In this document: positions 1 through 45,496 of the stretch, piece after piece
Layout of the letters: each line of letters opens with the position of its first letter
Position numbering within the stretch: position 1 is the first letter of the stretch
Source: Antitrichia curtipendula
Lineage: Eukaryota; Streptophyta; Bryopsida; Hypnales; Leucodontaceae
NCBI GenBank assembly: GCA_951230915.1
Contig: OX579637.1
Coordinates: forward strand, 28,458,001-28,522,000
DNA: 64,000 nucleotides
Direction of reading: 5' to 3'
Notes under the pieces: model-generated
What the model saw: only the letters and a program-made list of their open reading frames with translations
What the model was told of the DNA's origin: nothing
The model's database searches: none
Position numbers and translations under genes: made by a program

Positions 1-64
1 AATGCATGGACATAACAAAGGAGTGAAGAATGGTTGAACGGTAGCACAACTAGGCCTGAATGTA

Positions 65-79
65 TCGGCTAGCAGCCGA
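65..79. repeat. P1 palindrome in the intron after 131
   Basis: TCGGCTAGCAGCCGA lies inside the putative intron that begins at the GTAAGT donor. It is one of about twenty P1 copies in the window. Confidence 0.8.
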
Positions 80-1696
80 CAAAAGAAACACCGTCATGCA
101 AAGGAAGGGAAAAGGGCCAACGACACTTACATAATTAACTTGTTTGTGCATGTGATCCCAGTTCATTGCAGAGGGGACGACCTTAAGATTGTCGACGCGT
201 TTATTTCCAACGAGTCTGAACTCGTTTGGCATCTGGTCGGCATTATCGTTAATAATTGTCATGAGAGTTGCTTGAGCTTGAACCGTCTGTGGACGTGGAC
301 GGCAAATCCCCGCATTTCTGTGCGACCCACTAACGGATCCTCCAACTGCCTCGGCCTTGTACACATGATAGGCCGATCTGGAAACCCCGTGAATGATATA
401 CCAAGCGTTTTTGCACACGTCTACATTTGCGAGAGTGACAAAGTTATTCCCCGGAGTAATACCAGCATGAAGTTGACTCTACATCGCATAGGCGATCTCC
501 CTCCTTGTCTTGAATATGCAAGCATAAAACTTTTGGCGTAGAGTTCTAGTGTCCTCCCAGGGAAAGGTTTGGCAACATCTGAGCTTGCAGCACTTCTGGG
601 AGTTGACCTTCCGGATGTCCAGCTCCGACGTCTTGGTTTTCAGCTTAGACCCGTGATCCTTGGGAAGGACCCTCCGACGCACAGACTGGTATGGATTCTT
701 GGGTACCCCCTGCATTCCGCCGTCGTCAGACTTAATCAGCTCAGCAGCCTTGGAGCATAGCATGACAATTTTCGAGGGTAGCCTTCCACCTTCTAATCTA
801 GCTTGAGAAAGCCGCCAGCGCATGGTCGTCATTTGCAGTGCATCATTGTCCAACACAAACATGACACCCACATCCGAATCTCCGAGGACACCGTCGTTGC
901 ACGCTTTGTCAAGAAGACACACTTGGATCATCGCTCTTTCGAGGAAGGAGAAGTCATTGTTCAGTAGTTCGCAATATTGATTCCTCCAAAATAGTCTATC
1001 GGGGAATGGAAGACCCAGCTGAATTCCATCTGAGTTCAAGTTGACGTCTCCACTTCTGTTGGTTCCAATAAACGCATCTGTATCAACGAAGCTTCCAGCA
1101 GCATTGGAATCTGATTCGGCATCTCTAGAGCTACTGAGATCATAAACATTGGGAAGATGATCACCGGACCCGTGGCTGTCATCGTCAGATGAGTATAGTC
1201 TATCGTCTTGATTGTCCTCGTCCAAAGCTGTCGCAAGAGTTCTTGCCTGTGCCAGCACGAGGATCTCAGCCCGGACACAGATTGAGCTACCTCCACTTTC
1301 ACAATGACCATCCAGAAACACTCCCCTCAATTGGGTCCCCGAGGAACATGTCGGCTGGCCGCTAACATTTGTGGGAACTGCACTCGAGGTTACAACAGGC
1401 CTGACCTTATAACCACTTCAAAGTATTATATATCCAACACAGAGTCTGAGTGTCATCAAATCTGGATTCTCGCAATAGGCATTGTGATCCTTGAATTCAT
1501 CAACGACATGCTGAAGCTTGACAACCAGGAAGAAACTGTGTGGAACTCGGCCAAAATCCTTTTGAGGAATACTTGACAATTACACCCACCCCAACATATA
1601 CTAGGCCCGAGCCAATAGTCTGTAGAAGAGCAACATCCATATTAACAGTGAGTGATAGGAACTGGTGAATGGGCTTATCATCCGTGTCCACTTGTG

Positions 1697-1711
1697 TCGA
1701 CTGTCAGCCGA
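1697..1711. repeat. P1 palindrome, diverged
   Basis: TCGACTGTCAGCCGA, with one arm altered. It sits between the two open stretches of the copy A gene, where an intron would be expected. A half-site (TCGGCTGGCCGC) lies at 1351-1362. Confidence 0.6.
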
Positions 1712-2117
1712 CACCAGCAGAAGTAGACCCTTCCAACTCTGCATAGGTATAAACATTGATTTTGTCCCACAAAATTGACCTTCTCGAGCAATGGCGGAGG
1801 AAGACCAAATCCCCCTCAAGATACGGAATAGGCATGTTGAGGTTATCTGGAACATCTAGTACATGCACCCGCACGAGGTAGGGATCGCGGCTCACCACCT
1901 TATCTACGACAGCTCGCCCAACATAATAGAGTCCTTCAAGGATAAGAGCAACGACAACCCCGTGCCGCAACTTTAGTCTCCCGGAGCAACCATTTCTTGT
2001 GAATGCTTCGATAGGACTTGCCTCCAGACCAATGTCAATAGATTCATTCATGATTCCGTGTCGGCGATCGGGACCTACAATATCGGAAGTTGTTGCACTC
2101 AGACCCAGAATCACCTT

Positions 2118-2265
2118 ATCGGCTGGTAGCCGATACATCCGGCAACAACCTCCTAGAAGCCTTCTACAACGTCCTGACGCTATGGATATTTGCAGTACTC
2201 CCTCCACTGCAGCTGGTATCGGCTAGCAGCCAATACCCAACAATCCTATCGACTGGCATCCGACA
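2118..2265. repeat. Three P1 palindromes
   Basis: Copies lie at about 2118-2135 (ATCGGCTGGTAGCCGAT core), 2214-2237 (right arm ends CCAATA) and 2247-2265 (diverged, CGACTGGCATCCGA). They overlap or flank the presumed 5' end of the copy A gene. Confidence 0.75.
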
Positions 2266-2972
2266 GTGACGTCCGTACGGACAAGCTGATGATTCAATCC
2301 TGCACGGATCACGTCCTCTAAATCATCCAGAAATGTAGATCTCAGACACAGGGCACTGATTTTTTGACTAGACGTGATGTGTGAGACATGTAATGTCAGA
2401 AAGTGCGCAAATCCAACAGAGAAAACGATTTAAAGAATAACTTCCTGCAACGACACTAAGCATGTCTTGATCTATAGAGCGTAGTCTACTGCATTCCAAT
2501 CATCCCTGCGGTCCTCTGCATTTCAATCATCTATTGCATTGCCTTGCATTCCCCAACATTCCAATGGAGTCCATTCCTCCCTAATGCTTCTTGGACAGCC
2601 TGACTATGTGCACAGTGAAATAAGACTGAACCTACGTGAGGAGGCCAAAGAGGGAATTTGGCGCTTGAAATTTGAATTTGGAAAAGGATGAAGTTGTTGG
2701 GATTGCAAAAGAGACAAGTACGTACGTTTGAGGATTGGCTAGTGAAACGTACACATCTTCTTGCAATGAGTGTTTGTCACTTTGATGTGCTTGGGTGGAA
2801 ATGAAGTACTGTTTCTTAGATGAATAATGGGGATGGATGAAACTAATGGATGAAAGGACTACATTTGCCATCATTGCGCCTATCGGCTGCTAGCCGTCAC
2901 TTGAGTGGGGTGAGGTGGGGTATACTCCCCATACCACCTTCATTTGTCCTCATTTGCAATCCACCTCTCTTA

Positions 2973-2988
2973 CTCTCTCTCTCTCTCC
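2973..2988. repeat. (CT)n microsatellite
   Basis: About eight CT dinucleotides in a pyrimidine-rich stretch within the divergent intergenic region. Confidence 0.85.
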
Positions 2989-3210
2989 GTGTCCCGGCTT
3001 ACAGCTGACACTAGGTCAGCTTCCCAAGGAGCAGCCGCCCCGCGACTCACAGCAGCCGAATCACTCCAATGGCCAACCAACACATTAGGTGGCGCAGGTG
3101 ACAAGGACAGTCACTAGCCGACACCAATATCGTCCCAACCGATAACCTGCGGATTCCGACGGTGATGGCGTCCTCCTTTGCTGCTCCTCATAGGTAATGG
3201 CTTCTTCCAC

Positions 3211-3677
3211 TGTATCGGCTGGCAACCGATACATTCCTGCTTTCATTTGTTATGTTAGTCGTTCGCATATATTCATGCCTCTATCGGCTGGTAGCCGACA
3301 GTGTTTGCAGCGCTTTGGAGGGGCCGTTGTCGGACTATGTCAACTGGCAGCCGATAAAGGATTTTATATTATATCGGATGCTATAATTAAATCGGCTAGC
3401 AGCCGATAGAGTTACTTGTCATGATGAGGGAAGTGATGATTTTATTGGTTGGCAGCCGATAAGGTTATGACTTCCCTCATCATAACAAGTAACTCTATCG
3501 GCTGCCAGCCGATACAATTATAGCATCCAATATAATGCATGAATACTGCTATGCAATGTCCCATCTCAAGTAGTGGCGGCCGATATAACGACGCCATTGA
3601 TTGAATGTAGGCCATCCAATACAGTAGTTCACGATTGCTGTGAATAGTATCCCCATGTGTCGGCTACCAGCCGATAT
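3211..3677. repeat. Dense P1 palindrome cluster
   Basis: Seven P1 copies fall within 470 bp. Consensus TATCGGCTGGCAGCCGATA; the arms are exact complements around a single central base. Differences concentrate at the centre and at CpG positions. Confidence 0.85.
3368..3536. repeat. 169-bp foldback (long inverted repeat)
   Basis: Left arm 3368-3434 and right arm 3470-3536, 67 nt each, are reverse complements with only a handful of mismatches. Both arms contain a P1 palindrome, and the 35-nt loop holds a third. It could be a hairpin MITE, or the product of recombination between P1 copies. It would fold into a nearly perfect stem if transcribed. Confidence 0.9.
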
Positions 3678-3897
3678 ATGTATTTTGTACTAATCATGAA
3701 TAAACCTATGCAGGAAACCGGCCCTAATGACCAGAGTACTTGGCGAACAAATCCCAAATTCAAAGATAATGGGAGATGGGTTTCCCCCACGCGCAACCTG
3801 GATAGCAAATCCGGCCATCCAGGAGTGGGATCTATGCTGGAGGGAGGGCGCCGATAGATATGTGGAGATTGCATGCTCATTCAAGTTTTAGGGAAAC

Positions 3898-5148
3898 ATG
3901 ACGCCCGGACACGGGAATGTTATGTTAGTGATGGCGGTTGGCGGGGACGTTCACGTCATGATTTGTTTGCTCCTGATCGGGAACTCGGACGGAGTTGCGG
4001 ACTACATTACAACGGAGTTGCCTGTCCACAAGTGCACGGAAAATGTATGTGGACCTCAGTCTATGGCGAAGGGAATGACGTTTGCTGGGGACATCCCTGA
4101 GGATGTAGATGACCTTGTACAGGAATGGGAATACCTGAACACGGAGAGGCAGCAATACAACGCACTAGTCGCCCGTGAGATGGAGAAGGGAAAGAAGAAG
4201 GTGCCTGGATCGCGAAAGCTGGTGACGAGGGCACCGCACGTGGAGGTGGAATTTGCTGTCGAGGAGACGGGATCGACCAGCAAACCGAAGCGGAAGAAGA
4301 AGAAGAAGGACGACCCCAATCGTGTGCTTTCCTTCACACTCGACAAGGCACTTGTCTGTGGGAATCATCTCACGACCAAGACAAAAGACAATGAAGTGAA
4401 TGCCATCTACCAGGCGCTCGAAACGGGGTTGCTTCATGCCTTCCCCTACAAGAAACAGAAACTTTCCGGTGTCATCCCTTCGGACAAGCTCCACACTGCA
4501 CTGGACGAGCTGAAGTACCCAAGATTGCAAAGGATCGCCTTAGTCAGGTATTTCATACGATTGGGCATTCATTCCGGAATTTCATACACTTGCTTCTACC
4601 TATTATGTTGGCTGGTAGCCGACATATTCTTTTGTTGTTTCTAATCTCTAGGGGTTATGTCATTTCAGGTGAAAACCATATACAAGGGGTATGGCTCTAT
4701 CAAAAAGAAGCCCGAGATTCACGACATCCCTCTGAAGCGAGCTCCACTACCGATTGACAAGGGGTTAGACGCCGTGATGGACAAATGTCAGGCGGAGGGC
4801 GATGTAATGTACATCGACAGTCTTCTTGTGCCTTGGTGGCAAACACCATGGGTACACTGGTATATTATTGGCGGGTAGCATATCGTGACCGCGTGCAGGG
4901 AACTGGCCGAACAGTACCTCAATGGCTCTTCGGCCAAAAAGAATCTCCTGGAGTTCAAGGTCATTCATGTATTCAGCAGAGATCCGGACATTCTCGTTCG
5001 AGTTCCTAACGCGCTGAACTTGAACATCACCGAGAAGGTGGCAAAGAAGACCTTTTGATCCTGTGTGGAGATGGGGAGGGCGGCATGGGTGAAGGCCCGG
5101 TGTCCGGAGCCGCACTATGGAGGTGGCAAGCCATCAGCAGCATTTGAG
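3898..5148 (+). pseudogene. ParB/Srx-like (GGQH-type) element gene, copy 1
   Basis: Exon 1 is open to about 4547, with a charged N-terminus (DIPEDVDDLVQEW), a basic KPKRKKKKK tract and a predicted globular part. A putative intron (donor GTATTT at 4548, acceptor TTTCAG ending 4668) carries a P1 palindrome at 4604-4625. The best donor leaves the frame off by one; the weaker GT at 4543 keeps it. Exon 2 (4669-5148) reads VKTIYKGYGS, then WYIIGG-stop-HIVTAC: a TAG at 4876-4878 sits where copy 2 has Gln in IINGQH. A TGA at 5056-5058 follows, then RAAWVKARCP and a possible donor at 5149. Residue spacing after the motif (VF, N..N, R..W) matches copy 2. A ParB/sulfiredoxin-fold assignment rests on this motif alone. 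The gene is dead as read. The start codon is uncertain; a Met near 4063 is an alternative. Confidence 0.55.
4604..4625. repeat. P1 palindrome inside the ParB-like gene intron
   Basis: TATGTTGGCTGGTAGCCGACATA-type copy. The outer arms carry paired differences from the consensus, so the outer complementarity is kept. Confidence 0.8.
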
Positions 5149-5220
5149 GTACTTGTCACCGTAACCCTTATTTCCTGGGAAATTAATTATATAGATTATG
5201 TATTTTTCTCATTCTTTTCT

Positions 5221-5240
5221 GTTGGCTGGAAGCCGATATC
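5221..5240. repeat. P1 palindrome just upstream of the CACTA insertion
   Basis: TTGGCTGGAAGCCGATA-type copy in the presumed intron after 5148. The CACTA terminus begins about 60 bp further on. Confidence 0.7.
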
Positions 5241-5329
5241 TAGTGGATTTAGTAATTTTGGCTGAGCTTTAGATTGTGAGTTACGAACGTCATGTATACA
5301 CTACAAGAAAACGAGGGGTTCTGCGACTA

Positions 5330-6870
5330 CACTGTGCAACTCATTTTGTAGTTGCATATGTCGTTTGCAACTAGGTGATAATCTGGAGCCCGTAGTTGCG
5401 GTGGACAAGTTGCATCAGTCGCAATGTAGTCACAGGGGTTTCATGTCATCGGACAGTATTCAAAAAACTTCATCGACAAATTGTTCTGACGTGGAGATTA
5501 CTGCCACGTAAGGTCAGGTCCTGCATTTGATACTTCAGGCACTGGTAGTCGACTTATTTGCAACTAACATACACTCGTATATGACTTATCATATGCAACT
5601 GGATCACAACTTCTTTGCAATTGGGTTGTGTTGATGTATGACTTCTTTGCCACTACTATGCAACTACAGAGGGATCTGCGACTAGTTCCCGATGTGTCTA
5701 GCTACTCCTCAAGTATGCGACTTGGATGCGACAAGTTTTCAACTGATGTGCTACTCCTTTGTTACTTCCAAGCAACTTCTGCATAACTCCTATGCAATTG
5801 ATAGTCAACTCATATGCAATTACGTTGCAACTCAAAATGCACTCAGATAGAGCTCATTCGCAACTAAAAACCAACTCACATACAGCTAATTTGCAACTAA
5901 AACCAATTCACATGCAACTATAAACCAACTCACATACAACTAATTTGCAACTGAGAACCAACTCACATGCACCTTATTTGGAACTCAAAGCCAACTCATA
6001 CACAACTAATTTGAAACTCAATACCAACTCCCGTGCAACTCATTTTCGAAAAAAACCTTGTCTCCGGCAACTTGTTTGCAATTCAAAGACAACTTATATG
6101 CTACCAGTTTCCAACTCAGAGCCAACTCCAGTGCCACTAGTATGCAACTCAAAGCCAACTTACATGAAACTAGTTTACAACTCATGTCCAACTTACATGC
6201 AACTAGTTTGCAACTCATAGCCAACTAACATACTACTAATTTTCAACTCAAAGCCAACTCAGATGCAACTAGTTTGCCACTTTAAGCCAACTCATCCGAA
6301 AATACTTGGCAACTCCATACCAACTCATATACAACTGGTTTGCAACTAAAATGCAACTAAAATGCAACTAAGTTGCAACTCTTCTGCAAAAGAAGGCCTA
6401 CTTTTAGGCAACTAGAATGCAACTCAGAACCAACTCAAAAGCAACTATGTTGCAATTCGAAGCCAACTCCCATACAATTAGTTTACAACTGAGAATTGAC
6501 TCACATACATCTAATTTGCAACTCAAAGCCAACTCAAGGCCAATTGACATACAATTAGTTGGCAACTGAATACTTACTCCCATACAACTGGTTTGCAACT
6601 AAAGGTTGACTCACGTACAACTAATTTGCAACTAAGAGTTGACTCACATACAACTAGTTTGCGGTTAAGAAATAGGAAATCTTACTACTAGTTTGCAACT
6701 AAAAACTGACTCAGTCACAACTAATTTCTGACTCAAAGGCGACTTATGTATGTGCTACTTTGCAACTCAAAACCAAGTCTCATACAACTAGTTTGCAACT
6801 GGAATCTGACTAACATACAACTAGTTTGCAACTGAGGACTGACTCACATACAACTAGTTTGCAACTCACA
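5330..6870. repeat. CACTA left subterminal repeat array
   Basis: Dozens of degenerate units in both orientations built around TTTGCAACT, with CAACTCACATACAACTAG-type spacers. Unit spacing is irregular, roughly 20-40 bp. In CACTA elements such motifs are the binding sites of the TNPA/TNP1 protein. Small ORFs here are by-products of the repeat. Confidence 0.85.
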
Positions 6871-7073
6871 GTACCTTACACTGTTTGAACAATGAACATC
6901 ATTTCGAACAGAACATCACAAGTTTATAAAATAGTTATTAGCCACATCTATACATGCATCCTATGTTGCATACACTACTACTACGTACTAGAAGAAGCAC
7001 ACACTACTTCCACAATCAGTAAATACAAAATAGTTATTAGTATCTCCCTCATGTACTTTGTACATCACAACAA

Positions 7074-9989
7074 TTATTTCTCTCCAAGTTTTCCTTTCAA
7101 ACTTGAAATACGAGGGATGATGACTATGTATTGTTCATCCCAAATAGTATTTCCTCCCACCACATCTTTCAACTTTAATTCATCTCCAACTGGATTCGGA
7201 TGCATCAAGTCAACAAACCCCCCTGGTGCATGTTCAATGTCAAGCTTGCACCATCCTTTAGGAATAGACTGTCCATGATATAGTTGTGAGCCAGGTCCAC
7301 CACCAATTGCAGTAATGGTTGCTGAGGCCACTACTTGCTTTGGAGCAGATGGGTTCACAAGTGAAACTTGTTGTCCAATTGTAAACTGCACACATAATAA
7401 AAAAGAATTGATACATGAAGACTACATATACCCTTGAAATCTATAAAGAGTGAAGGAACAATGCCAACAAAGACATTTGAAGAATAATTAGACAAATAAG
7501 TTACTCACTCTATATTTTTTTGGAGATCCCATCTTCTGACTTTGTGTAGGACAGTCCACCTTCTCACTTTGTGTAGGTTGTACCTTTGTCCTCAAGATTT
7601 CCTTCTTAGCCGCAGGCTTCTGCACCCATATATCACAATCATGGTTAGTATTTCATCTATGTGAAAATTTGTAGTCACTTTCTCAAATGCAAATCCCATG
7701 TTCCATGATGCTTCCTCACCTGTCGATCCTTCCCTTTCCTTAGCTGCATAGAAAATACTGTGCCTTTGCTTGGATTCTTTGGTACTTCATCAATACCACT
7801 AGAGTTTTCAAGCACTATTACATCAATTCCAGCTTCGCCTTCAACTTCCTTCCCTTTCCTTAATGGCTCATCACTCCCATCAAGGTGGCCGCAATCATTA
7901 TTTTTTTCAGCCTCAATGGATTGTTCTTCCATTCCGTCAATCTTCTGGTTGTTCTTTTGTGCACTACCGTTGTCAGTCTCTTGTAATGACGGTTGTTCAC
8001 TGAGAGGCTCCAAACTGGGGTTGTCAATAGGCTCCAAGCTCTGGTCCATCTCAAAGTCATAAGGATTGTGGACGATGTTGATATCTTCCATAGGTTCAAC
8101 AAGTGTAGAAGGACCTGCTTCATCAATAGCTAGAGAAGGACTAGTTGTTTTAGTAGTTAAAACTTCATTTCCGCCTTCAAGGATGCTCTCCTTCTGTAAA
8201 ATTTTCAATAATGTTGCCTGCAACGATTCGACGGCTTTTGTGTTACGATCTGTACTTGCAAGTACCTCGACCGTGAACTTTTCAAATTCATCTTGTTTAC
8301 GTTCCAAGGTAACAATTTTTGCATGAAGTCCTGAAGATACGGCCTGTATTACATACAAGAACATTAGAAACAATGACTTCACATGCTTGTATGATTCAAA
8401 ATGCATGGTACAATTTGATTTTTGAACCAAACACTTGCAATAGCACTATATGATTGTTATGCAACTCCTATGCAACTCCTATGCAACTCCTATGCAAATG
8501 CAAGGAGTACCATTTCTATAACCACAATACAACTCTTTTACAACAAAGTTTTGATATTAGACCGCTCTATTAATACAAGAACTTATACACATTGAATTTG
8601 TAAACTAACAAAGTCAACCTACACACAATTGTATTAAAATTTATGATGCATGTTTTGAAATGAAAAGAAGATCAAGAACACTTACCGATGACCTTGATAC
8701 TTGTAGCCCCTCTGCAAGTTCACTAAGCCTTGGACTCCTTTCCCTGTCATTCGCCTAATAAAAGGCCAACATTACCACGACATTGTCAAAATGATTTAGA
8801 GGAATAATACAAAGTACTTGTAACAAATTCATTTAGAAGGATGAGAATAAGCCAAAAACAACTTCAAAAATTAACTCACCACATTTGCTTCTTCACCTGC
8901 CTTCCCTTGTCGGCCACGCTTTGATACATTCTGCACTTGTTTTCTAACATTAGACATCATCTCTGATTTCTTCACTTGGTCACATGTGCCCCAATAAACC
9001 TTTAACCGCTTCCACTGCTGAGGATCAATGTTCATAGGACAGTCATCGTCTTTCATAGGATCAGATAATTTCTTCAGTCTACATCGCTCACCCTTCAAAA
9101 ACTTCTGCACTGCATTCCAAAAATTCTTGCTGCTAAGGGAATTGGGAACATATTCAAACTCAAGATCCATAGTATCTCTGAGCTTCTTCAAAGTTTGTGG
9201 CCTGTGTTTGTTCCAATGAATAACACTCATATCAAGGATCAAAGGGGCAAAGGCCCTCATAGTTCGGTCCCAAGTAGTGTTCCCAGAAGAAGAGGCATCA
9301 ATTTCACCATTTGACTTCACATGTAATTCATTCGTTCTTTTGCCATTATTGCTTCTCACTTCTGCTTCCTTCTCTAACTCTCTGTACCTCTTGCGCCTAG
9401 TAGAACGTCCACCACTCTGTAACTGACACACCACTTCTTGTGATTGTACACGCCCTTGCCACAAAGTTGAATTAGGGGGGACATGAGGTTCAACCATTGC
9501 CCGTTGTGGAGGTTCGGTAGGTGGTGGTGGTATGGACTGTGGTGGTGCCCATTGCCACTGCCACTGTCCAGCTGGGCTTTGGTGCGTTGTTAGTCTTGTG
9601 AGTCCACCATCATGAGAAGGCGAGGATCTCTTTCTGCTACCACCGGCTGCTCCATGTATGCAACTATCATCCTCTTCAAGTTCATTGTCTTCATTCCCTG
9701 AAAGAATACTACAACATTAGTAGTATTACAAGTAATGTAGAAAAGAAAAAATTCTTATCATTGAACCTTTATTTTCTGTAAAGGAAGTTCATTTCCATAA
9801 AAAAAAATCAACTCACCTTCTTCAGTGCTGTGAGAGTCCTCTAAAGCCGACATGTCATCTTCAGCACTTGCATCTTCACTGACAGCTTCTAGGTCTTCAC
9901 TACTAACTCTGGCACTCTTACGTGTGGGTAATGCTGGAACTCGAGTATGCTGTTCTTGTACACTTTTGCGCTTTGCAATTGAAGCTCTC
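7074..9989 (-). CDS. TNP1/TNPA-type CACTA transposon protein (Transposase_24-like plus DUF8039-like)
   Basis: Six exons can be joined, all open and in phase, each with GT donor and AG acceptor: 9989-9817, 9697-8880, 8754-8686, 8343-7720, 7619-7509, 7385-7074. An additional upstream exon carrying the start codon is needed, because 9989 is an acceptor and no in-frame ATG lies above about 9855. Exon 1 is acidic. Exon 2 has Pro/Gln-rich sequence, then the Transposase_24-like block (RTMRAFAPLILDMS, QWKRLKVYWGTCDQVKKS). Exon 3 has RSPRLSELAEGLQ. Exon 4 is a long acidic linker. Exon 5 ends MGSPKKYR. Exon 6 (IGQQVSLVNPSAPKQVVASA ... IPKGWCKLDIEHAP) resembles the DUF8039 region of plant CACTA proteins. 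The total is about 700 residues. The expected role is binding the subterminal repeats. Being undamaged, it suggests a recent insertion. Confidence 0.8.
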
Positions 9990-10119
9990 CTGCAAACCAA
10001 CCAACATTATAGCTTTAAAGGAAAAGGATATAAGAACAATCATCTATTTTTGGAGCCACATAATACATGAAGATTTCTGACATTACTTCGGATACTATGC
10101 TACGTTGTGTCTATTTTGC

Positions 10120-10225
10120 AACTACATGGCAAGTAGCAACTGCATTGGAACTAGCTTGCAGCTGCATATCAACTAGCTTGCAACTATATGGCAACTAATT
10201 GGCAACTCGTTTGCAACTTCAGTTA
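10120..10225. repeat. CACTA right subterminal repeats
   Basis: Several copies of GCAACTA / ACTAGCTTGCAACT within about 100 bp, of the same kind as the left array. This places the right end of the element nearby. Confidence 0.7.
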
Positions 10226-10369
10226 CCTCTATAATGCTAGAGGAACTTCTTACAAAAACTACTGAAACACAAATATTGCGACCACCTACTCGTAAACATC
10301 ATTGGAAGACTAAAAGAAGGTTCAAATTTCTGAGAGGCTTTTACAGTTCCTTTGATGTTGCTTTTCTAG

Positions 10370-33261: not shown

Positions 33262-33322
33262 TTAGATCGGATCGAGCTAAACAACATTCCCAAATGACAC
33301 ATATTAGATCAACTCAACCTTA
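33262..33322. repeat. Two P2 palindromes in the 33219-33371 intron
   Basis: TTTAGATCGGATCGAGCTAAA at about 33261-33280 and a diverged TAGATCAACTCAACCTTA at 33304-33321. The intron is defined by GTAAGT and TTTTAG and joins two same-frame exons. Confidence 0.7.
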
Positions 33323-33371
33323 TTGGCAACTGATTTTATGCTCAATCTATATGAGCATGCGATGTACTTAC

Positions 33372-36318
33372 CATTGCAGCGCATGTAAATTTCAAGCCTA
33401 CGCAGAAGGACAGAAAGTTCGTCCCAGAAATGCAGAATTTTCTCAAAATTCGGAGGTAGAACTCCATCCGCAGCTCTAAATTGTTGATTCTGAATTCGAG
33501 TTCATTGTATTGACGCGGCTTTGTGTATGTATCCGTATTAGGAGCGTCATACGATGCTCTGAGGTCGACATAATTTCTGTTTCTAGGGCTTTGAAGGAAT
33601 GTCAGATAAACTTTCTCGACCGCCTTCTTATTGGTGACGGAGTAATCGCCCATCCTCTCCTGACTCACTAGCATGTAGTCCAAGAAAGTCATCTTTTATT
33701 CCTTCAGTACATCATTTGACTCGATGTAGTGGAGAAGCTGCGTGTGCTCCGTCAGATCAGATGCTATTAGCAGCCAGTTCCGGACGTCCTCGAGGTGTGG
33801 ATGACCTTTCTCTTGGAATGATCTCATGGCAGCTATGAAGAACGGGTTGGCTGGCGTACACTTCTCCTTGTTTAGAACAATAGGAGTGTATCTCATGTCC
33901 CATATGCCAAACATGATGTCCTTCACATGGTCAGCAGTCATCGCTCCCTTTGGCCAGTCCTGGTACTCTTCCGATTTGATGTCATACGGTTGATAGTGAG
34001 CAATAGACATCAATGGGACAAAGTTATTCATGTGTTCAAGAAACACCTTGAAGAATTGGGCCGCGTACGTTGACATTTCCTCCGCGGATTTGTTCTTCGC
34101 TCTCAACTGCTTGGCTTCTACCCACTAATCGTCTCCAGGTTGTTCAAGAAGAACGTTCATCGTGGCACTTGTGAAGTTTCAACTTTTCTTGAATTGCCTC
34201 CACTTCTCCACGTTCAACTCGTCCATGGAATTCATTAGTCCCAGGGTCGAGTCCACGAGGTGCAGTTCCCTCTTCACAAGGTATTTTCGCTTCCGGCGCT
34301 CGACCCACTCCTTGTATGTGTAGCAGCTTTCGAGCACACCCGTGATGAGTTTTATTGTCACCTTCGGATACTTCTTGTTCTTCCTTCCTAGCTCCTGATG
34401 CAGGATGTGCTTGGCCAACTTCATCAGATCATACAACGAGAGGTTGCCAAGCCACTTGAAGATTTCGTGGGTCAAGTTCCTGTTCTCTGGCTTCCAACTT
34501 GGTTTCACGTTGAGCTTCATGCGGGTGTCTGGGTCCAAAAGCTCCCCGTGCGCTGCGCTCAAAATCACTTCACTCTAGAGGTTGAAAACTTCATCAGGAG
34601 CGGTTATAATCTTGAGCTCGTTCACAATCTTAAGCTTTTCCTCCGCGTCCTTGCCTTTTGCTGCCTTCTGGGCCTTCACAACATCAAGCATAGCGAAGCG
34701 CTTATACATTGCCAAGGAGAATTCCTGAACGATCAAGAAGCATTACAGATGAGTTAGTAGGCATGATTCAGGTCGAGTCGACCAAAATTGTACTCCAACA
34801 TTGTTTGAGTGATACAGATAGATTATGCTTTAGAAGTTCAGGTCAAGCCGATCTGATTTACATACCTTGAGCATTGTCTTGTTCAGTTTGTTGTCCGCGT
34901 TCCGCCTGGCGTTGGACTTCTTTCCAACGGGTGCAGCTTCTTTGGAATTTCTAGGTCTCCCCATGATTTCCCATACTTTCCTCGCTCTGAGGATGTTAGT
35001 GGACCACGACGGCTTCATGGCAACGAAGTGGTTCACTCGATTGTAGTACGCGGAGATGGCACGGAGCTTTTCACCATCTGATGACCAAAAGACGTAGCAC
35101 TCCCACTGTCGGAAGTGCTTTACAATTTCTTCGTCTAGTCCTTTTGCTACCATTAGCTTGCTTGCAGTTACACTATGCTGGCCGTTTATAATGAAGAACT
35201 TCTTGTCCTTCAGGAGTGGCCACTGTTCGGGTGTGGGTTTCTCAGTCTGATCTACGGACATGACACACAATGTCTGTTTTGTGGACTTGTCTGGCATCTC
35301 CTATAGAAAAGTCATGACGTCCTCGGCCAATCTTTGCTCGTGGCTGCGAATGTTTAGGTGTGCAGGTGCCTCACTGAGCTGATCGATGGGTATCGTTTTC
35401 TTCTCTTCTTTGTCGAAGACGTATGCGTCAGTGCAGTTTTTCTAGTAAGCCTTGTAAGCAGCCGTGGAAGCGTCGTAATCATGTTTCCGCTTCGAGTCAT
35501 ACGCCATAGGTATATCAGTAACCGCGGAGACAAAACTTTGTTCCCCAACTGCAGATGCGCTTGCATCCTTGTCATAGGGGATAATTTCTGACAACGATGC
35601 AAGATTGCTTTTCTTTCAGCTTGACAAGGTCGTAGCCGCTTGCATATTCTTTCTTGTCTCGCGGCTCTGTTGCGTTCCTGGAGTTTCCATTGACCCCTGC
35701 CTTTCTACTCCTCTCGGAGAATCGGTTGACACCGTCCTTGGGGTCATGTCTTTATGCTTGGCCTATAGTTTGGCTTTCAATACAGCAAAGTCGACAAAAA
35801 GAATCCTCAGCTTACTACACAAGCTCTTCCCAACCACAGTCCTCCCACTTAGCATTTTGAAGAAGCCTAGGTCAACTTTCTTCTCCAGTTCTGGTATCTC
35901 GGTTCTGTAGTCCGTTGGCTTGAGAGACCTGATGAAGTGTGAGACATTGAACTCTACCTTCAACAAGTCTAGGACCAACGTGAAGTAGTACTGGTCTTCC
36001 TCGGGTAATTATATCTGGGCCGTTTTGCAGTGAATTTTTATTATTGGCCCCAGATCGTGGACAATTTCCTTGATTTCTTTGTCATAGGAGATTGGGAAGT
36101 ACGGTTCGGTTTCCTTATATTTTACTGCGAAGCTTATAATGGTATCATGAATGGTTATAATTGAATGGTATCATATTTAGACTCCAGTACTGGACCCTAT
36201 TTGGATTCTGGAATTCCCATTACTCTCCTTCTTGGTTGAAGTCGTCACTGTCCTCTTCAACGTTGAAGTTTTTGCACCTTCTGTACAAGGCCTTGAGCTT
36301 GGGTATTTGGTCTTCCAT
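33372..36318 (-). pseudogene. ParB/Srx-like (NGQH-type) element gene, copy 2
   Basis: It starts near ATG 36318 (MEDQIPKLKALYRRC, after TTGCAG), with one frame shift near 36130, where a short duplication lies. It then keeps a single frame from about 36130 to 33372. A GTATGT...TTCAG intron (34725-34865) joins in phase and carries two P2 palindromes. The ParB/Srx-like core is KKFFIINGQHSVTASKLM near 35170, followed by ECYVFWSSDGEKL, YYNRVNHFVAMKPSWSTN and RARKVWEIMGRP. A second globular part follows (EFSLAMYKRFAML; HEIFKWLGNLSLYDLMKLA; GIWDMRYTPIVLNKEKC). Stops: TAA 36009, TAG 35763, TGA 35616, TAG 35442, TAG 35301, TAG 34575, TGA 34179, TAG 34125, TAA 33696. It ends at a GTAAGT donor leading to 33218. 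Only the NGQH motif supports the fold call; DNA binding is inferred. Confidence 0.6.
34768..34857. repeat. Two P2 palindromes in the 34725-34865 intron
   Basis: TCAGGTCGAGTCGACC at 34768-34783 and TCAGGTCAAGCCGATCTGA at 34839-34857. Together they occupy much of a 141-nt intron. Confidence 0.8.
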
Positions 36319-36351
36319 CCTGCAAAATGCGTTGAACTTGCACTTGTTAGA

Positions 36352-37080
36352 TTCAGGTCGAGTCGAGCTAATTTGCTACAGACCTGGTATTTGTGAGCAC
36401 CGTATAGCCTTGCTGGTTTTCTTTTGGTTCTTTTGGTGGTCGTTCATTACTCTAGTGTTTGGCTTGCTCGAATATATTTTTGGAGGAAGCACTTTAGGTC
36501 GACTCGATCTAAGCTACTATTTTTGATACTTATCTACTCGTTCATTCTGTTGCTGTCGGTCGTTTCATCTTACGTGTTTATTTTTGCTTCTTCTTTTGTT
36601 TTCTTCATTCTCTTGATCTGAGTTACTTTTTTTGTTGGACGTTAGTGAGGCTAGTGCTGCTGTTCTTTATTCGGGTTTAGTATAGTTCACTGTTGGTTGT
36701 GCAGGTCGATTCGACCTGAACAACATCGTTCAGGTTGGTTTTTTGGTGTCTTCGTCTATTTCATTTGTGCTTGGACGGGCTTTTAGATCGGGTCGACTTG
36801 AATATAGCTATCTGCTTAGTTTACGTGATGGTGTGTTCTTATATTTTATATTTAATATTCAGGTCGTCTCGACCTGATTCTGCAGGAAATATTAGCGTTT
36901 GGCTTAGTTATTGCGTGATTTGGTGGATTTTCTTTTGTCTACTTTGCGATTTTGAACTCTTATGCCTATTTAGGTCGGGTCGATCTGAATTATACTTCTA
37001 AATTTCTATTGTAATTTGTGGATTTGTTTGTTTTCAGACATCTCGACCTGAATTGTTGTCGACCTAAACTGCATTTGACC
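36352..37080. repeat. P2 palindrome cluster upstream of the copy 2 ParB-like gene
   Basis: Copies lie at about 36352-36372, 36494-36512, 36702-36720, 36783-36803, 36859-36879, 36970-36990 and 37034-37051, with half-sites to 37080. The region is T-rich on plus; the hydrophobic ORFs here are compositional. This position corresponds to the P1-rich divergent region of copy 1. Confidence 0.85.
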
Positions 37081-37137
37081 TGAAGTGTTTATGATTTCGG
37101 TTTTCCCTAATCCCTGCGCCCTATTTCCACAGCTTAT

Positions 37138-37200
37138 CGTATACCCTAGACCCTAAACCCTTAACTTGAAGTAGTCCTGAGCCCTGTACCCTAAGCGAAC
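37138..37200. repeat. Degenerate CCCTAAA telomere-like tract
   Basis: Irregular ACCCTA / CCCTAAAC units, interrupted. Interstitial plant-type telomere sequence, at the left edge of the 37.1-41.2 kb insertion. Confidence 0.55.
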
Positions 37201-38488
37201 AATACTAACGTCAACAGAATTTGGAAAATGCATATCCATACCTACACAAAGAAAGGTCCAAGGTAAGAATTCCCTCCAAAGCTTGCAAAGTCCTTTATCT
37301 GTCGTTGTAGAACTTGCAAATTCACAATGAATGCAAAATCAGTTCCCTTTTTTCGCAATTCAGCGTTGTTTGTATGGTATAGGAAAAGAACAACTCACCT
37401 GTGTGCCACCTTCATTGAAAGAGGAAAAACAATCTTCAGAAAACAAACTCTGAACAAGCCCCTGTGAACAAAATCATGAATCCATGGACTGTCAATTTAA
37501 TCAAATTCCAGGAGGTCCGCAAGTTTTAAGGGGTCCAAAAAAAAAAATTCACAAAGCAAAGACTATGCCAGAACCTGTGAACACAAACCTTCGCACCAAG
37601 AACACCCTACACCCAAAACTGAATGAAATCAAAACTGAGAATGCAATCTTCAAATCCAAAATTTGCACACACTCAAAATTCTACTGGAATTTACAACTAA
37701 AACTTGAACCCCTCAAACTTGAACACGCTCTATATCCAAGCACTACACATACAACACCGAAAAAACGACCCTCCTACGCTCTTCCAACGGCGGATCCTCC
37801 CGCGCTAGAATGCCGAATCCTCAACAAGTGTGCCCTCCCTCCCGCAAATTCGATGCACGCTGTCCCTCCTCCGTCGCAGTGGAAACCTGAGCAGGACGTT
37901 CAATCTCCGCTTCAATCTTCAATAACCTTCAACCTCGATTCTGTTTTGAGAGCATCCTGCAAAAATTGGTGGAAGAACACGCGATTTGGAAGCACCTTCA
38001 CACACGGAAGTCATCCGAAGTTGCACACGCAAAGGAAACCCAAAATCGACAGAAAAGCCAAAACACCAAACCCTAAGGATGTACACCCGTAGCCTATACC
38101 CGGGAGTTGAAATCCTTACCCGGCAGTCCCGTATAGGGTCTTCAAATTTTTTTTAAATAAAAATAAATAGCCTTAAACAAACAAAAAAATGCTTATACAA
38201 CCAAACAATGGTATGGACAATACTTTTAAGTTGAAGAAAACTTTACCAAATTTTTATTCATAGTAATTTACAATCTACAAAATCCAAGTAGAGGTCTAAA
38301 TTTACACCAAAATTCACACCAAACCATATACCAAAATCCGATGTTGAAATTCAGTGCTTATTATTTTATAAATCAAAAAAAAAAAAATGACTGCGGACCC
38401 AAAAATATTCATCATTCAATTACCATACAAGTGCTTTAAAACATCAAGGCCAAAGAAATATGAACATAATCATCAATAAATTACCATA

Positions 38489-38717
38489 CTTGCACACCCA
38501 ATGATACAATATCAAAAAATATATCGGTTTCCAAAAAAATATATCATTAAATTGCAGAAGTCCCGGAATTAAAAAAAAAATGTATCATTGAGTGTGCAAG
38601 TGCTTTGCATACCAAATGATACAATACCAAAGAAGTATCAATTTCCAAAAAAATATATCATTAAGTTGGACAAGTCCCGGAATCCAAAAAAATATGTATC
38701 ATTGGGTGTGCGAGTGC
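38489..38717. repeat. 115-bp tandem duplication with inverted ends
   Basis: ATGATACAAT at 38501 recurs at 38616, and the following 100 bp match closely (both include TATCATTAA and AAGTCCCGGAAT). ACTTGCACACCCAATGATAC at about 38489 is the reverse complement of 38582-38601 with one mismatch, so each unit is also a foldback. Confidence 0.75.
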
Positions 38718-39559
38718 TTTATCCATACCCAAGCCAAAACCATTACCCATACCCAATAAGACCTGGCCTACACCCGTCTAACCAAACCCTTATCCTATAG
38801 TCCCATATCTGGAAGGATCTAGCCGTTGAACATGGTTGATATCTGATAAGACGCTGACAATACCTATCAATATCACACCCTTGACCCTTGTACATGCGTT
38901 GCGTCTTCAAGGACTACTTTGAACACTTTATAAATGAAAGAGTGACCCAAATAATAAAGACTTTTTATTACCATGTGAATCTAGGCTTATGGAATACGCA
39001 ATGCACCTATCAAATTAAATAAAAGACATAAGAGTACTGACCATAATTATTCACAACAAAAAATCTATAACAAATAGATGCAGTAAGAAATATATAAGAA
39101 GATTCATATCATTCATTTCCCTTTCCGGTTGAAGTCAATGATTACTACCCAATCTTATACCCTAAAATTTATGCATACGCTTGTTTTTTTATAGCATGTC
39201 TTTAACCCTTAAACAACAAATAGGTGACTAAGAAAATAATCCATTATCATCACCGTCGGAATCAATCATTGGATTAAAGAATATGAGATGCACTTTTCAA
39301 AAGTGAAGTAGTTGTATAGAATTTACTCAATTTAGAACCAGAGGTTCGATTCATGGAATTTTTGCAGTATGCACTACAGAACACGTTCTATGTTATGCAT
39401 TTCACCATGACTTTTCATTATGGGTTAAAAATTGCAAATGCTGAAAGAACTAAAAAACTAATATATAAAAATTATAAAGAAGATTCCAAAAATATTAATT
39501 GATAACTTCAAAAAATATTCTATGAACTCAAAATCTTTGATCTGTTTCCAACTTATGCA

Positions 39560-40650
39560 ATCCATTTTTTCTTCACTTCCACATACAAATTTCATGAATT
39601 TAGAGTAAAAATGCAAATGAGGGTACGAATTTATAGTTTATGAAATTTGTAGGGTCATGTACAATTATAAGTATCTTATGTGCAAAAGAAAAAAAATAGA
39701 CCCAACCACGTCCTACACTTTAGGGTTTTCAAGTGCAAGTTCATGGAATTTTGACGTGAAACCATGGAAGAAAGAATTGTGTAAGTTGCAAATGCGGTTA
39801 AGATTTGTAGTTCCTGAAGTATTTAGGTTCATGCACATTTTGGGGTACCTTATGTGCAAAAGAAAATATAAATTGGATATGGTGATTAATGGGCCCAACC
39901 TCTACATTCATGGAATTTTGACGTAAAACTATGGAAGAAAGAATTGTGTAATTCTTAAGGCTTCACAAATACGTGATTTAAATAACTTCATGAATTTAGA
40001 GTCCTAGGATCTCAAAGTACCTGGTGGGTTATAATTTCATATTTGTTCATGCCATTCCCAAAGTAACATGAATATGATCAAACAAATTTTCATGAATGAA
40101 AAGTCTTTACCCTATTTGCAACTTCTACAATTTCTTTTTCCATACTTTCATGTGTGAATTTCGTAGGTTTACAATTGTGGGCCCCAAAATACATGCTCTT
40201 ATTTTTTAATTCACTTACAACATTCTTAATATGAGCATATTCCATTCAAGTTTAATGAATTAAGAATCTTTGCCCCATTCTCAACTCTCACAAAAGAAAA
40301 ATTCACAGTTCCACGTGTGAATTTCAGGGGTTTACACTTGCTTGTAGGCCTCAAAGTACCTATTCCTAAATTTTTTATTTGCGCAAAGCATTTCCAAAGT
40401 AACATGAGAGTGATCAAACATACTTTCATGAATTCTAAGTCTTTACTTTATTTGGAACTTCTATTTTTCTTTTTAAACTTTCACGTGTGAATTTCACGAA
40501 TATTGAAGACTCCAAAGTCTAGAAGTACGTTGTTTGAATAATTTTTTTCACTTATAGCATTCTCACAAACAAGCACGATTCATAAAATTTCATAAATAAT
40601 AAACCGTTCCTCAATTTGTAGTTTCTGCAAAAAAAATTTTACAATTAATC
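39560..40650. repeat. Satellite-like array, about 165-178-bp unit
   Basis: CTTTCATGTGTGAATTTC-like phrases recur near 40146, 40314 and 40482 (spacing 168). Phrases ATGGAATTTTGACGT (39744, 39910) and TTATGTGCAAAAGAAAA (39674, 39850) show closer copies 166-178 bp apart. The unit is degenerate and apparently unrelated to the 27-kb array. Confidence 0.65.
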
Positions 40651-40729
40651 ACAAAACATTTACTAAATGAAATTATAAATACTTGTAGGATCCAATAACT
40701 GAAAGAAATTCATTTTGGTTGTACAGAAG

Positions 40730-41000
40730 ACACTAAATCCTAAACCCTAAATCCTAAAATTTTCAAAAAAACCCTGACTTGTATCCTAAATTCTATATCC
40801 TAACGTTTTTAAAAATGTCCAAATCCTAAACCCTAAATCCTAAACCCTATACCCTAACGTTTAAAAGATCTCAAAACCCTATACCCTATACATTAAATCC
40901 CATACCATAACGTTTATAAAAATCTCCAAATCCAGAACTCTAAATCCTATATCCTATTGTTTCATAAAATATCCAAACCCTAAACCCTAAAGTTTGCAGA
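40730..41000. repeat. Degenerate CCCTAAA / CCTAAATC telomere-like tract
   Basis: Many CCCTAAA and TCCTAAA units, mutated and spaced by A/T runs over about 270 bp. Confidence 0.65.
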
Positions 41001-41237
41001 AAAATGAAGGAATGAAAAATTAAGAAAATCACAGTTCGAAGGTGGGGCCGAGCGAGGGGGTCAGTTCACTTGGGCCCTCCGGAAGGCCATTCTTACATTT
41101 GATTCTGGTGGAAGAACTTTAAATAAGAATTAAATATTCAACCCCCCTCCCTTTACGCCGTATTGTGTTTGTGTGACATTAATTTATAGAAATCAAATCT
41201 ACCAAAGCACATAGCTTACTAAATTCAGTGTTCTACA

Positions 41238-41863
41238 TTAATGGCAGCAGCTGTCTATGCGTTGGATACCGCGAATAGTAGGGTACGCATCCAAGTCCAA
41301 GTCCATGCCTGCGACTTTATGCATGACGTGTGTGTTTTCAAAAATTCTGTACTGTGCTTCCCGCGTTCCTATCCCCACCAAGAAATTCTTGGATGTGGCC
41401 TGTGTTTGGGTTAGGACTTTATCTTTCACATTCGCTAGACTCTGCACCTCCTAGCAAAAGCTATCTTTGTTCATTGTCACTTGTTTCAGCGTTGTTATTG
41501 AGAGTCATTTGAGTATTGTGCGTGCAGGCTGTTTGGTTATTCAGAAGTTCAATGAACAGGCGCTTGGACTCTCAGTACGTCTTTGACGACTCCATAGCTG
41601 TTTCCTAAGATTTCCATTCCATCAATGACTGTCATAAAGAGAAGGATGTATACTTGAAATTGTGCGCATGATATGTTTAGCGTAGTAGATCGATGCTCTT
41701 GTGTTGCGTGGAGATGGTCGTTAGTGATTGCATTAGATTGACTGAATGTGTCGTGAAGCATTGAAGCAATCTTTATGAATGAGGTCCCAATATTACCGCC
41801 GTAAAATACGGAATAGGAAATAAGTGCTTCAAAAACCAATACCTCCGTAAAGCCCGGAGACAT
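41238..41863 (-). pseudogene. Two exon-like pieces upstream of the copy 2 ParB-like gene
   Basis: Open stretches at 41863-41549 (ASMLHDTFSQSNAITNDHLH) and 41447-41238 (KDKVLTQTQATSKNFLVGIG, FENTHVMHKVAGMDLDLDAY) look protein-like, lie on the same strand as the ParB-like gene and sit between it and the divergent DUF7869-type gene. They may be 5' exons cut off by the 37.1-41.2 kb insertion, or another gene. No family recognised. Confidence 0.35.
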
Positions 41864-42537
41864 TTAGGTCAAAGCGACCTGAATGCTAAACATGATAATG
41901 TATTCCTTCAATTTATGATCCAAACAGGGGTATTGCATTTTCAGGTCGGTTCGACCTAAATGGATCTGAATATTATACTATTGGAATAAGAAGCTTACCT
42001 CATCAGTTTAGGTTGGTTTGATCTGAAACTGGTGAAATTAAGTTTCATTATCCCTCGAGTGGATCGTCTAGAGTTTTGTTGTTTTTGCGTACTATGTTGT
42101 CTGTAATCAATATTAGGTCAACTCAACCTAAATGGTTTATATTAAATTTAAGTCATTCATTTGAACTCCATCATACTTGTGGCATTCGTTGCTAGGAATT
42201 TATGTATAATGAGCTTATGATTATCATTCGCTGGAGTTGAATTCAGAGTCAGTGATGCACTTAATTTAGGTCGACTCGACCTGATGGTCAAACTACAAAG
42301 GTCTGCGAAAGTCTTAGTCCTGTCTTGTTATCGAGAATATTAGTCCAAAAATTCAGTTCGCTTTTGGGTAATATCATTCAAGCCGAGTCGATCTGAGTAG
42401 CAGTGATGAAGGTGGATTTACTAATTACTTATACAATCCTTCACTGTAATACATATGCACTTTACTGGTCACAAATATGATATTTTCCTTCTCCAAGATA
42501 GTTGCATTTTTTGACCGTTAAGGTCAAGTCGACCTTA
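41863..42537. repeat. P2 palindrome cluster upstream of the DUF7869-type gene, copy 2
   Basis: Copies lie at about 41863-41884, 41940-41961, 42006-42027, 42113-42133, 42266-42284, 42378-42397 and 42519-42537. The copy at 42113 has both CpG sites changed to CpA while the palindrome is largely kept. Confidence 0.85.
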
Positions 42538-42616
42538 CATTTGACTTATCAGTTTAATATCTTTTTTTTGATTATGTTGACTTACCACCTACAGTATTGG
42601 TATATGCCCAGAAGCA

Positions 42617-45496
42617 ATGGATTCCTCGGCAGACGCATCTGACATGATAGATTCATCGGATGATGAGTACTATCCGCGAGAAGAGGAAGTTTTGTTGTTG
42701 GAGTCGTCAGACGATGAACTCCAGAATGCAGATGGAGTGAATGCTGATGTCCCAGATTGTGAGGGTCTTCCATGTAGGTTCTGGAATACCCGGGTTGTGA
42801 CTTTGTACAATGAAGCCGGCCTGCTCGTTGGTCAAGGTACCTGCCATAGTGTGAATTTTAACCTTGTCCTCGGTGTCAGTGGTCCTCTTAGAGACACTCA
42901 CGTAACAATGCACATTTCCAAGACATTTTCTGAAGATGACTTGTGAAAAGAACGAGAGTACTTGCTACTTACTTGGCCTATTCATTTAGTCCATTGCCGT
43001 TGGGCCAGTCTACGTGATCATGAGGCTCGAGATAATTTCAATCGCCTCCAAGCGGCTCTCTTAAATCCACCATCTTCAACGTCGGCGCGCCGTATACAAG
43101 TACCATCCGAAATCCGCCTTGGGAGACTACTCTAAGAACAAAGGATCTACTCACTCAAGATTCCATCAATTTGATGTCCAGTAAAGTATGTTGTCGGCAA
43201 AACTGTGTTCAACCATTCCCCAGGGATAAGATACAAGCCTTTTGTGAACACATGTACCAGAATTCAACCTTCAAGCACAAAGCCTTTATGAAAATGGAAG
43301 TGCACAGACAAATCCATCTTGACCAACATGGAAGAAGAATGGTAACAATTGAAGAGATACCGGTGTGCATGGATGCATATTTTAGGGGTCCCGTGGTCCA
43401 CCTTCTTTTGCTACCAAACATACATGAAGGTCAGACGGGAAGCGATGAAGCATGGCAACAAAGGATTGGTGAAGCCAAGAAAGCACACTCAACAAGCTAC
43501 TGCAACATTGAAGTGCATCCTAGAGAAAGAGGCGGATCATATGCCACATCGTACAAAGACGTTGAAGTTGGGGGAATAGGTTGTATCCATGATACTCCCC
43601 TCCACGTTCCAATGGAAGGGTAAAATGAAAGAACTCAACGAAGCGAATGCTGCTTTTGGATTGAAGGAGGTCTCAATTTCAAACTTGAGCAAGATTAAAT
43701 GTTCAGCGTTACCAGAGTATGAGGTGAAGAAACCAGGGGACAATTTTGCACGGTGCGCTACTTGTGACAAATTGCAAGAGCTTAGGAGGCGTGCTCTTGC
43801 TGGGTCTGTCACTGCTTTGAAGTGGTCGCGGAGTTTGGACAAACATCTAGCAATTGCTTATGCTCATCAAGAGCTGTACTATGCAAACCGCTACTAATCA
43901 CTTACTTCACCTCACGAGTGCCTTACAATCATGCATGACAAAATGGACCACTTAAAAACAGCTTGTCCAATCTTCTTCCACAAGAGTAAAGATGTTGATG
44001 GTCTAGTGAAATTGCCTGTGTCTGTCACGGGCATGATTGCGCATGGTCATGGAGATGTGCGTTACGCACATTATGGGTTGGATCTATTCACAAAAGATTC
44101 AAACTACACCATTGGCTCCATGGCAAAGCTGTTGCGAGATTTAGAATTGCCTCCCAGGTCTTCTTCCCAATAGTTGCTTGTGGGTTTGAGGTCCACCAAT
44201 TTGTTTCGTGCAATATTGAAGGGAGCAGAGATGTGCGAAAATTCACTTCCTTCACCGCCAATCAACTTAGTTCCAGCAACGCCTTTGCCCCCTATTCTCA
44301 ACGTGAAAATGGACAATGCCACATGCAACAACATGAACAGATATGTTTTCTCTTTTTGGTCTCTACTTGTTGCAAAGAAGATCTTTCGAGAAGTGTATGT
44401 GAACTTCATGATCATGGATCATACGCACGATGATATTGATGCATTGTTTGGAAGATAGAGCATGCTCTTGAAGAAGGAGAACTTTCCAACAATCCCGACC
44501 TTCATGAAGTCCTTCATGGATGTGGAGTCCATTCCTACTATCCCTCATCTCATAGAAGAGGTGCCCGATTTCAAAGGTTTCATTGCTGGTAAATGGATGG
44601 ACGGCAATGAGATTCTCATAGGACAAACAAGACCACAACAAGTGAAGTTCTATCTAGATTCGACGGATTGTCCAGTCATGAAGTACAAATTGAAGTGTAC
44701 GGATGAAGATTGGTTGGGCAAGGATGGCGGAAGCATTGAACTGTAGAAAGAAGACGCTGAAGGGCAAAGTCAATGGCCACGTGGTGTACCGTTTTCAGTT
44801 CTACAAAAGTCAATGAAAGGCGTGGAAGACATTGTGAAAGGTGTAACTAGATTCATGTAGTATTGGGAGAATCTATGCAATGCAGACGTCACTGGAGAAT
44901 GTCGGAGACGCTACGAGCCTATTGTGCGCTATTGGTATGGTGTTAAGATTGCTCTGCAGGAGCCACTACCATTGTCCACTGTTTTGAAAGACAGGTTCTG
45001 GCCAACTATTTGTATACAAGCAACAGAAGCAGATCAATTAGACGAAGATGGCGAGGACCTTGAAGAATATGGTGTGGATGACGCTTATGTTGGGCCTTTG
45101 AGGGATCACCCACAACCATCCTTCAGGGTGGTGCGGGATCTCTACGAAGGGTACTTTGTTGCAGTTCGACCTGCGGATGGTGAAAGTCAACCAGTTTGGA
45201 TTGCCAAGGCGTTGTTTGATCCAAACTATAATCCTGAGAAGCCGAATTGCATGCTCATTCAATACTTTTGTTTGACATCAAGGAATCAGGATGTTCGAGA
45301 TTTCTATACAGGATAGGATAGCAAAAGAAGTCTGCATTAGAAGGTTGATGAAACCGGACCACCTCTTTGGGAGGAAACAAACGCTTTGATGACAGCATGG
45401 AAGTCCCAAAACAGAAGAGGTACTCGCGAATGTAGGATCAAGATTCCTACAGCTCAAATTGAAGTCATCAACCAAAGCTTGGCTTCATATACTTGA
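42617..45496 (+). pseudogene. DUF7869-type (DDE-like) transposon gene, copy B, nearly full length
   Basis: The first exon (42617-42946) is acidic (SSDDEYYPREEE) with GQGTCHSVNFNLVLGVSG. From 43171, CCRQNCVQPFPRDKI carries the same CCxxxC motif as copy A. The frame shifts near 43367 into WMHILGVPWSTFF and continues in one frame to TGA at 45494-45496: PRKHTQQATATLKCI, FARCATCDKL, CLTIMHDKMDH, VSVTGMIAHGHGDVRYAHYG, LNVKMDNATCNNMNRYVFSF, MDHTHDDIDALFGR and ENFPTIPTFMKSF. These match, from memory, the DUF7869 region of plant proteins. The KMDN and HTHDDID motifs look like catalytic acidic positions of a DDE/RNase H-type fold (inference). Stops: TAG 43577, TAA 43895, TAG 44171, 44456, 44744, 44858, 45314 and 45338. 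At 44456 and 44744 family members I recall have Trp. Confidence 0.7.

Follow-up and report, generated by a model that had tools for sequence, protein, structure and literature searches.

The moss Antitrichia curtipendula carries two copies of large DNA transposons in a 64,000-nucleotide stretch of contig OX579637.1 (the window; 28,458,001-28,522,000 of what we call contig C5), within a genome of 400 Mb. Judged from their sequences, both copies are end-to-end, decayed DNA transposons, and they represent two different families. Each pairs a gene for a DUF7869 protein with a divergent gene for a long ParB-like/NIF protein, and the elements are most likely large moss Sola elements, that is, members of a known superfamily with an accessory gene of a related type. 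Every family carries its own 19-21-bp palindrome, many copies of which lie in introns, promoters and flanks while exons are depleted of them; these family-specific tags suggest that the element encodes a protein recognizing its own DNA.

The boundaries of the two copies (Table 1) are marked by imperfect terminal inverted repeats of 26-27 bp, a length within the 11-1124 bp of Sola elements, and by 4-bp target duplications. In copy 2 the left repeat reads AACGTTATATTCATTAAAATGAGAGG and the right one, on the reverse strand, AATGTTATATTCATTATTTTGAGAGG; its duplication, TTTT, is weak taken alone because it is a run of T. A terminal-repeat search confined to the window yielded a pair score of 32 against a shuffle maximum of 33, no better than shuffles, and we accepted the copy 2 pair because other copies in the genome settled it. 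The left repeat of copy 1 was found in the fetched locus L051, and TACT flanks both ends; this copy is 86-87% identical to its sister copy. Terminal inverted repeats and a 4-bp duplication are present in all nine copies with both ends found (five of the D/E family, locus L022, the sister of copy 1 and both window copies), the duplications being TTTT, TACT, ATAG, TATC, TCTA, ATAA, CGCT, ACAA and CTAC. The expected left end is present in five of the eight D/E-family copies fetched and falls outside the fetched stretch in the other three. All 25 loci tested have the right terminal repeat 3' of the transposase gene (24 at up to 4-6 mismatches, plus L022); at up to 2 mismatches this repeat occurs 92 times in the genome, against 0 for a reversed control. 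The element ends begin with AAC or AAT, not with CACTA.

At least 49 near-full transposase copies, 67-70% identical to a Physcomitrium DUF7869 query protein, were counted in the scored subset of 2,208 first-look candidates, and 30 fetched loci fell into five families (clustering at 85% identity) and three singles. In lists confined to the best-scored DUF7869 and ParB matches, a ParB match lies no more than 40 kb away on the 5' side of 20 of 50 DUF7869 genes, invariably on the opposite strand (20/20) and mostly within 12 kb (18/20); one of the 50 has a match on the 3' side. In Ceratodon the gene pair bears the consecutive locus tags KC19_3G000200 and KC19_3G000300. The initial annotation had described three protein types occurring twice in the same layout, taken this as one mobile unit, and proposed to tabulate their co-occurrence and to look for ends and target duplications. 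The layout is borne out by profile matches in both copies, the sister copy supporting the weak pieces of copy 1, and the mobile unit by the ends, the duplications, the genome-wide copies and the divergent arrangement; tabulation and end search gave the positive results above. All three domain types are present, but the elements hold two genes, not three, because the ParB-like and FCP1/NIF parts lie within one long moss protein. Both copies exist, yet the elements exceed the 1-5.3 plus 15.3-16.2 kb and 30.07-45.5 kb first assigned to them, the common layout belongs to two families instead of one, and the span of copy 1 is not element throughout, 5,293-15,136 being foreign DNA.

The transposase gene of copy 2 matched PF25273 (E 4.9e-34) and the moss profile (score 1232 over 42,701-45,505). 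A Pfam search of the N-terminal piece of copy 1 (110-1000) gave no match; the core of this gene lies left of the window, where L051 matches residues 325-719 of a DUF7869 protein (E 4e-81), and open frames of the sister copy match DUF7869 at E 8.8e-39. The DUF7869 protein contains a candidate D-D-D triad and has weak, integrase/Mos1-like fold matches, with no close solved relative in Foldseek (none at E 0.001 or better). From the conserved residues and the predicted fold we infer that it is a DDD transposase. Among 52 pattern stretches in viral contigs there were no DUF7869 relatives.

The second gene of copy 2 is covered in pieces by the moss profile over 36,342-30,891 (E 1.2e-149, 5.8e-153 and 3.5e-57), its NIF domain matching PF03031 at E 3.9e-15; the open frame 3' of it is either its last exon or a separate small gene. 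The ParB-like piece of copy 1 at 4840-5121 is weak alone (profile E 0.03; hhalign 58%), and no catalytic motif was seen in the NIF-like domain of this copy. Its sister gives E 4.5e-5 for NIF and an hhalign value of 69% for ParB, while two further pieces of the sister's long protein did not match the moss profile. The moss protein has the ParB nucleotide-binding fold, KorB being among the fold matches. As regards possible residues for CTP binding and hydrolysis, both NGQH, which replaces the usual ParB motif, and YN..NH are almost invariant in the alignment. A NIF domain occurs in 17 of 27 aligned moss proteins. In place of DxDx(T/V), the catalytic motif of FCP1/NIF phosphatases, the copy 2 lineage has DLNGI and the copy 1 lineage EVSGT and CVAGL. 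A between-family comparison for the recognition domain located the greatest variation in linkers. NCBIfam returned one weak phosphatase-domain line only, and when the ParB/NIF profile was run against PDB sequences no match was significant (the top line had E 0.83, a methyltransferase line E 1.5). The same profile found 88 matches among 7,998 scored protein candidates; the named ones were all from Physcomitrium, none algal. Over all protein listings, relatives given with an organism name were from the mosses Physcomitrium and Ceratodon, in keeping with a moss host.

The palindromes distinguish the two copies. Copy 2 contains 17 sites with no more than 5 mismatches to TTCAGGTCGANTCGACCTGAA (Markov mean 0.10), none of them in exons, which by our marking by eye occupy 71% of the examined region. 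Copy 1 contains 23 sites of TATCGGCTNNNAGCCGATA at the same threshold (Markov mean 1.5); four are in marked exons, one of these (at 63) past the conserved region. In neither window copy is the motif of the other enriched. A skeleton TTYAG-N11-CTRAA is common to most families, and the palindrome of the copy 1 family is unrelated to it. Families A and B have TTTAGGTCGANTCGACCTAAA, one letter per arm from that of copy 2; family C has TTTAGCGCTRGTCGCGCTAAA 5' of the transposase gene and TTTAGCGCG-type sites 5' of the ParB gene, and L003 has TTYAGCGCG-type sites overlapping with those of family C. The palindromes of L005 and L029 are TTCAGGTCGGNCCGACCTGAA and TTCAGCTCGANTCGACCTGAA, respectively. 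That of L001 is TTTAGCTCGANTCGAGCTAAA; this 4.3-kb contig with an open moss-type DUF7869 gene is recorded under cyanobacterium AVDCRST_MAG81 and is likely a moss contaminant of a cyanobacterial bin.

Across the 30 loci, whose counts include related, non-independent copies, 169 palindromes were found in the 1,480 bp 5' of the transposase gene against 13.2 expected, and 53 in the transposase coding sequence against 32.6. The skeleton occurs 98 times 5' of the gene and 0 times within it, and each locus has at least three palindromes and at least one skeleton site 5' of the gene. In the genome as a whole there are 95 exact matches to the copy-1 palindrome and 225 matches, at no more than 1 mismatch, to the copy-2 palindrome, with 0 for either control. 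Among the first 50 places in each output, which are not a random draw, 39 copy-1 palindromes lie no more than 20 kb from a copy-1-family gene (expected under 0.5%) and 42 copy-2 palindromes no more than 20 kb from a match to a transposase, a ParB gene or an element end (expected ~2%). Chance palindromes are ruled out by the Markov controls and by the absence of any match for the genome-wide control patterns. In viral contigs the motif pattern gave L002 alone, a stretch that holds one site, which we took as chance. Family-specific palindromes were not described in the open-licence literature searched, and the initial annotation had not noted them.

In the parts of the sources available, Sola elements are characterized by a DDD transposase, a 4-bp duplication, sizes to over 15 kb and presence in Physcomitrella (PMC10741241; features also tabulated in PMC9033089), and the 21.5-kb Sola1-1_Ec32 of Ectocarpus has a ParB-like/methyltransferase gene on the other strand from its transposase (PMC12477816). 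Compared by these described features, our elements share the transposase, the duplication, the size of some members, the moss host and the opposed ParB-like gene; we consider Sola their most likely superfamily because transposase, duplication and host fit. They differ in that the moss protein joins ParB to FCP1/NIF without a recognizable methyltransferase, and in their family-specific palindromes, of which the accessible Sola descriptions make no mention. Relative to the algal transposon proteins that combine ParB-like and DNA methyltransferase parts (PMC12477816, in part), the moss protein has a NIF domain and a catalytic DPPY-type motif was not seen, an apparent loss. The initial annotation knew of no described plant transposon with this combination. 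That was too strong, given the Sola fit and the Ectocarpus gene in the source parts available, although neither the ParB+NIF protein nor the loss of the methyltransferase motif was found described in the open-licence literature searched; what is new is that protein and the palindromes, the superfamily and the ParB-like accessory gene being already known. A transposase superfamily of their own seems improbable for the DUF7869 elements: the name DUF7869 was found nowhere in the open-licence literature searched and Foldseek offered no close solved relative, but triad, duplication, size and host are all Sola features in the accessible descriptions, and the Ectocarpus ParB case is itself a Sola1. 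Finally, the stops in both window copies and the large insertion in copy 1 might indicate that the two gene sets lie side by side by chance within decayed repeats. This reading has virtually no probability left, since it is refuted by the shared, precise ends and duplications, and the genome-wide divergent pairs and the consecutive Ceratodon tags also contradict it.

We lean, with modest confidence, towards Sola-type cut-and-paste elements whose ParB-like/NIF protein recognizes their own palindromes, for anti-silencing or transcription control. The transposase would cut and paste the element. The long protein, as a dimer, would bind the palindromes of its own family, mark the non-coding DNA of the element and keep its promoters open, either by blocking silencing or by transcription control, and would leave host DNA and other families alone. 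ParB proteins load at palindromes and then spread, and because of this behavior we favor the ParB-like/NIF protein as the binder, the transposase being a possible one. Because its catalytic motif is changed, the NIF domain may serve to contact the phosphorylated tails of RNA polymerase instead of working as an enzyme. Such self-recognition would probably be like that of VANDAL/VANC in Arabidopsis, and protein and sites would co-diverge as VANC proteins and motifs do. VANDALs are Mutator-like elements (MULEs). In the available part of the VANC work (PMC5735166), element-specific short motifs likewise occupy introns, intergenic and terminal non-coding DNA and differ between related families; the VANC21 motif, however, has 9 bases and forms dense same-orientation arrays, whereas the moss sites are dispersed 19-21-bp palindromes. 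The moss duplication of 4 bp also lies outside the 7-12 bp given for MULEs (PMC10741241, in part), and no protein likeness was seen. We prefer marking of the whole element to a promoter switch alone because the sites span introns, promoters and flanks, and because of the VANC parallel. More speculatively, and with some doubt on our part, the protein could be a captured ParB-type sliding clamp that loads at family-specific palindromes and spreads, its NIF domain holding RNA or silencing polymerases off or on; this would be an independently evolved second anti-silencing system with a DNA code varying by family.

The palindromes could instead be operators of autoregulation, with a KorB-like ParB protein repressing or coupling the divergent promoters and silencing uninvolved, which we regard as unlikely but worth serious attention. 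Site clusters lie 5' of both genes, KorB is among the fold matches, and the outer half-sites TTTAGC/GCTAAA recur in several moss families as in TTTAGC(C/G)GCTAAA, the operator given for the ParB-type repressor KorB in the accessible part of PMC2680271. Introns and 3' flanks carry sites too, however, and the half-site likeness, six letters with a spacer of 9 versus 1, is a lead that possibly reflects chance. Compared with bacterial ParB, Noc and KorB, the moss protein is eukaryotic and transposon-encoded, and no partition partner was seen. Still less probable are transposase-binding sites for a transposition complex, comparable to the subterminal repeats of CACTA elements: the palindromes do vary by family as terminal repeats do, and the nearest sites in the copy-1 family are ~45 bp from the left end (4 mismatches) and ~350 bp from the right, but in copy 2 and the sister copy of that element the nearest site is 1.0-1.25 kb from the left end and ~3.6 kb from the right, and introns and promoters hold many.

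To our knowledge, there are few plant transposons whose self-discrimination and escape from silencing are understood in detail at the molecular level. The moss families offer about seven palindrome codes comparable on one architecture, some close, some unrelated and one from another genome, in a host group with tractable genetics where one can test directly whether a DNA-binding protein co-evolves with its sites. If our reading is true, ParB-type transposon proteins reach from algae to land plants.

Table 1. Coordinates of the features of the two elements in the window.
Feature	Position	Strand	Remarks
Copy 1 element	1-16790 in window	-	left end 3,049 bp outside window (C5:28454951)
Copy 1 right terminal inverted repeat	16764-16790	-	followed by duplication TACT (16791-16794)
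Copy 1 DUF7869 gene, N-terminal part	110-1000	-	moss profile E 4.6e-41
Copy 1 ParB-like gene, first exons	3892-5147	+	NGQH-equivalent near 4866; splice borders by eye
Copy 1 FCP1/NIF-like domain	15462-15872	+	PF03031 E 1e-3, under Pfam cut-off
Copy 1 palindromes TATCGGCT-N3-AGCCGATA	63-16745		sites within 63-5238 and 15487-16745
Foreign insertion in copy 1	5293-15136		CACTA-type end at 5299; 11/33-bp repeats at 5.7-6.9 kb
Copy 2 element	29708-46159	+	16,452 bp, end to end
Copy 2 left terminal inverted repeat	29708-29733	+	duplication TTTT at 29704-29707
Copy 2 right terminal inverted repeat	46134-46159	-	duplication TTTT at 46160-46163
Copy 2 DUF7869 transposase gene	42617-45496	+	several stops; start codon by eye
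Copy 2 ParB-like/NIF gene	30804-36342	-	several stops; ParB exon 34863-35300; NIF ~30891-31607
Open frame 3' of copy 2 ParB-like/NIF gene	30072-30449	-	by eye; present in sister copy too
Copy 2 palindromes TTCAGGTCGA-N-TCGACCTGAA	30751-42538		17 sites, in introns and two clusters (36.35-36.99 and 41.86-42.54 kb)

The foreign insertion occupies a position that in the sister of copy 1 is filled by ~3.6 kb of element sequence. It contains minus-strand open frames, one of 554 aa at 12,919-14,580, and a weak match to Transposase_24 (Ptta/En/Spm) at 8874-9716 (E 0.03); no clear right end matching its CACTA-type end was found. The promoter region of copy 1 contains an 84-bp inverted repeat (3368-3536, 87% complementary, 1-bp spacer) that overlaps several palindromes.

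Contig C5 makes up 9.3% of the genome, yet holds 56 of the 92 right ends (hand count), 56 of 85 ParB matches and 20 of 50 transposase genes; it may be a sex chromosome. Many Ceratodon relatives bear UG or VG locus tags, which we interpreted as sex-chromosome tags. In L034 (joined coordinates 1304-2143) a further piece of a ParB-like gene, with a Ceratodon protein as best match, adjoins the sister of copy 2 at its left end, as part of a neighboring or nested element. In the element L053 (C218), which has an open transposase, no N-terminal ParB part was seen; it is possibly served in trans.

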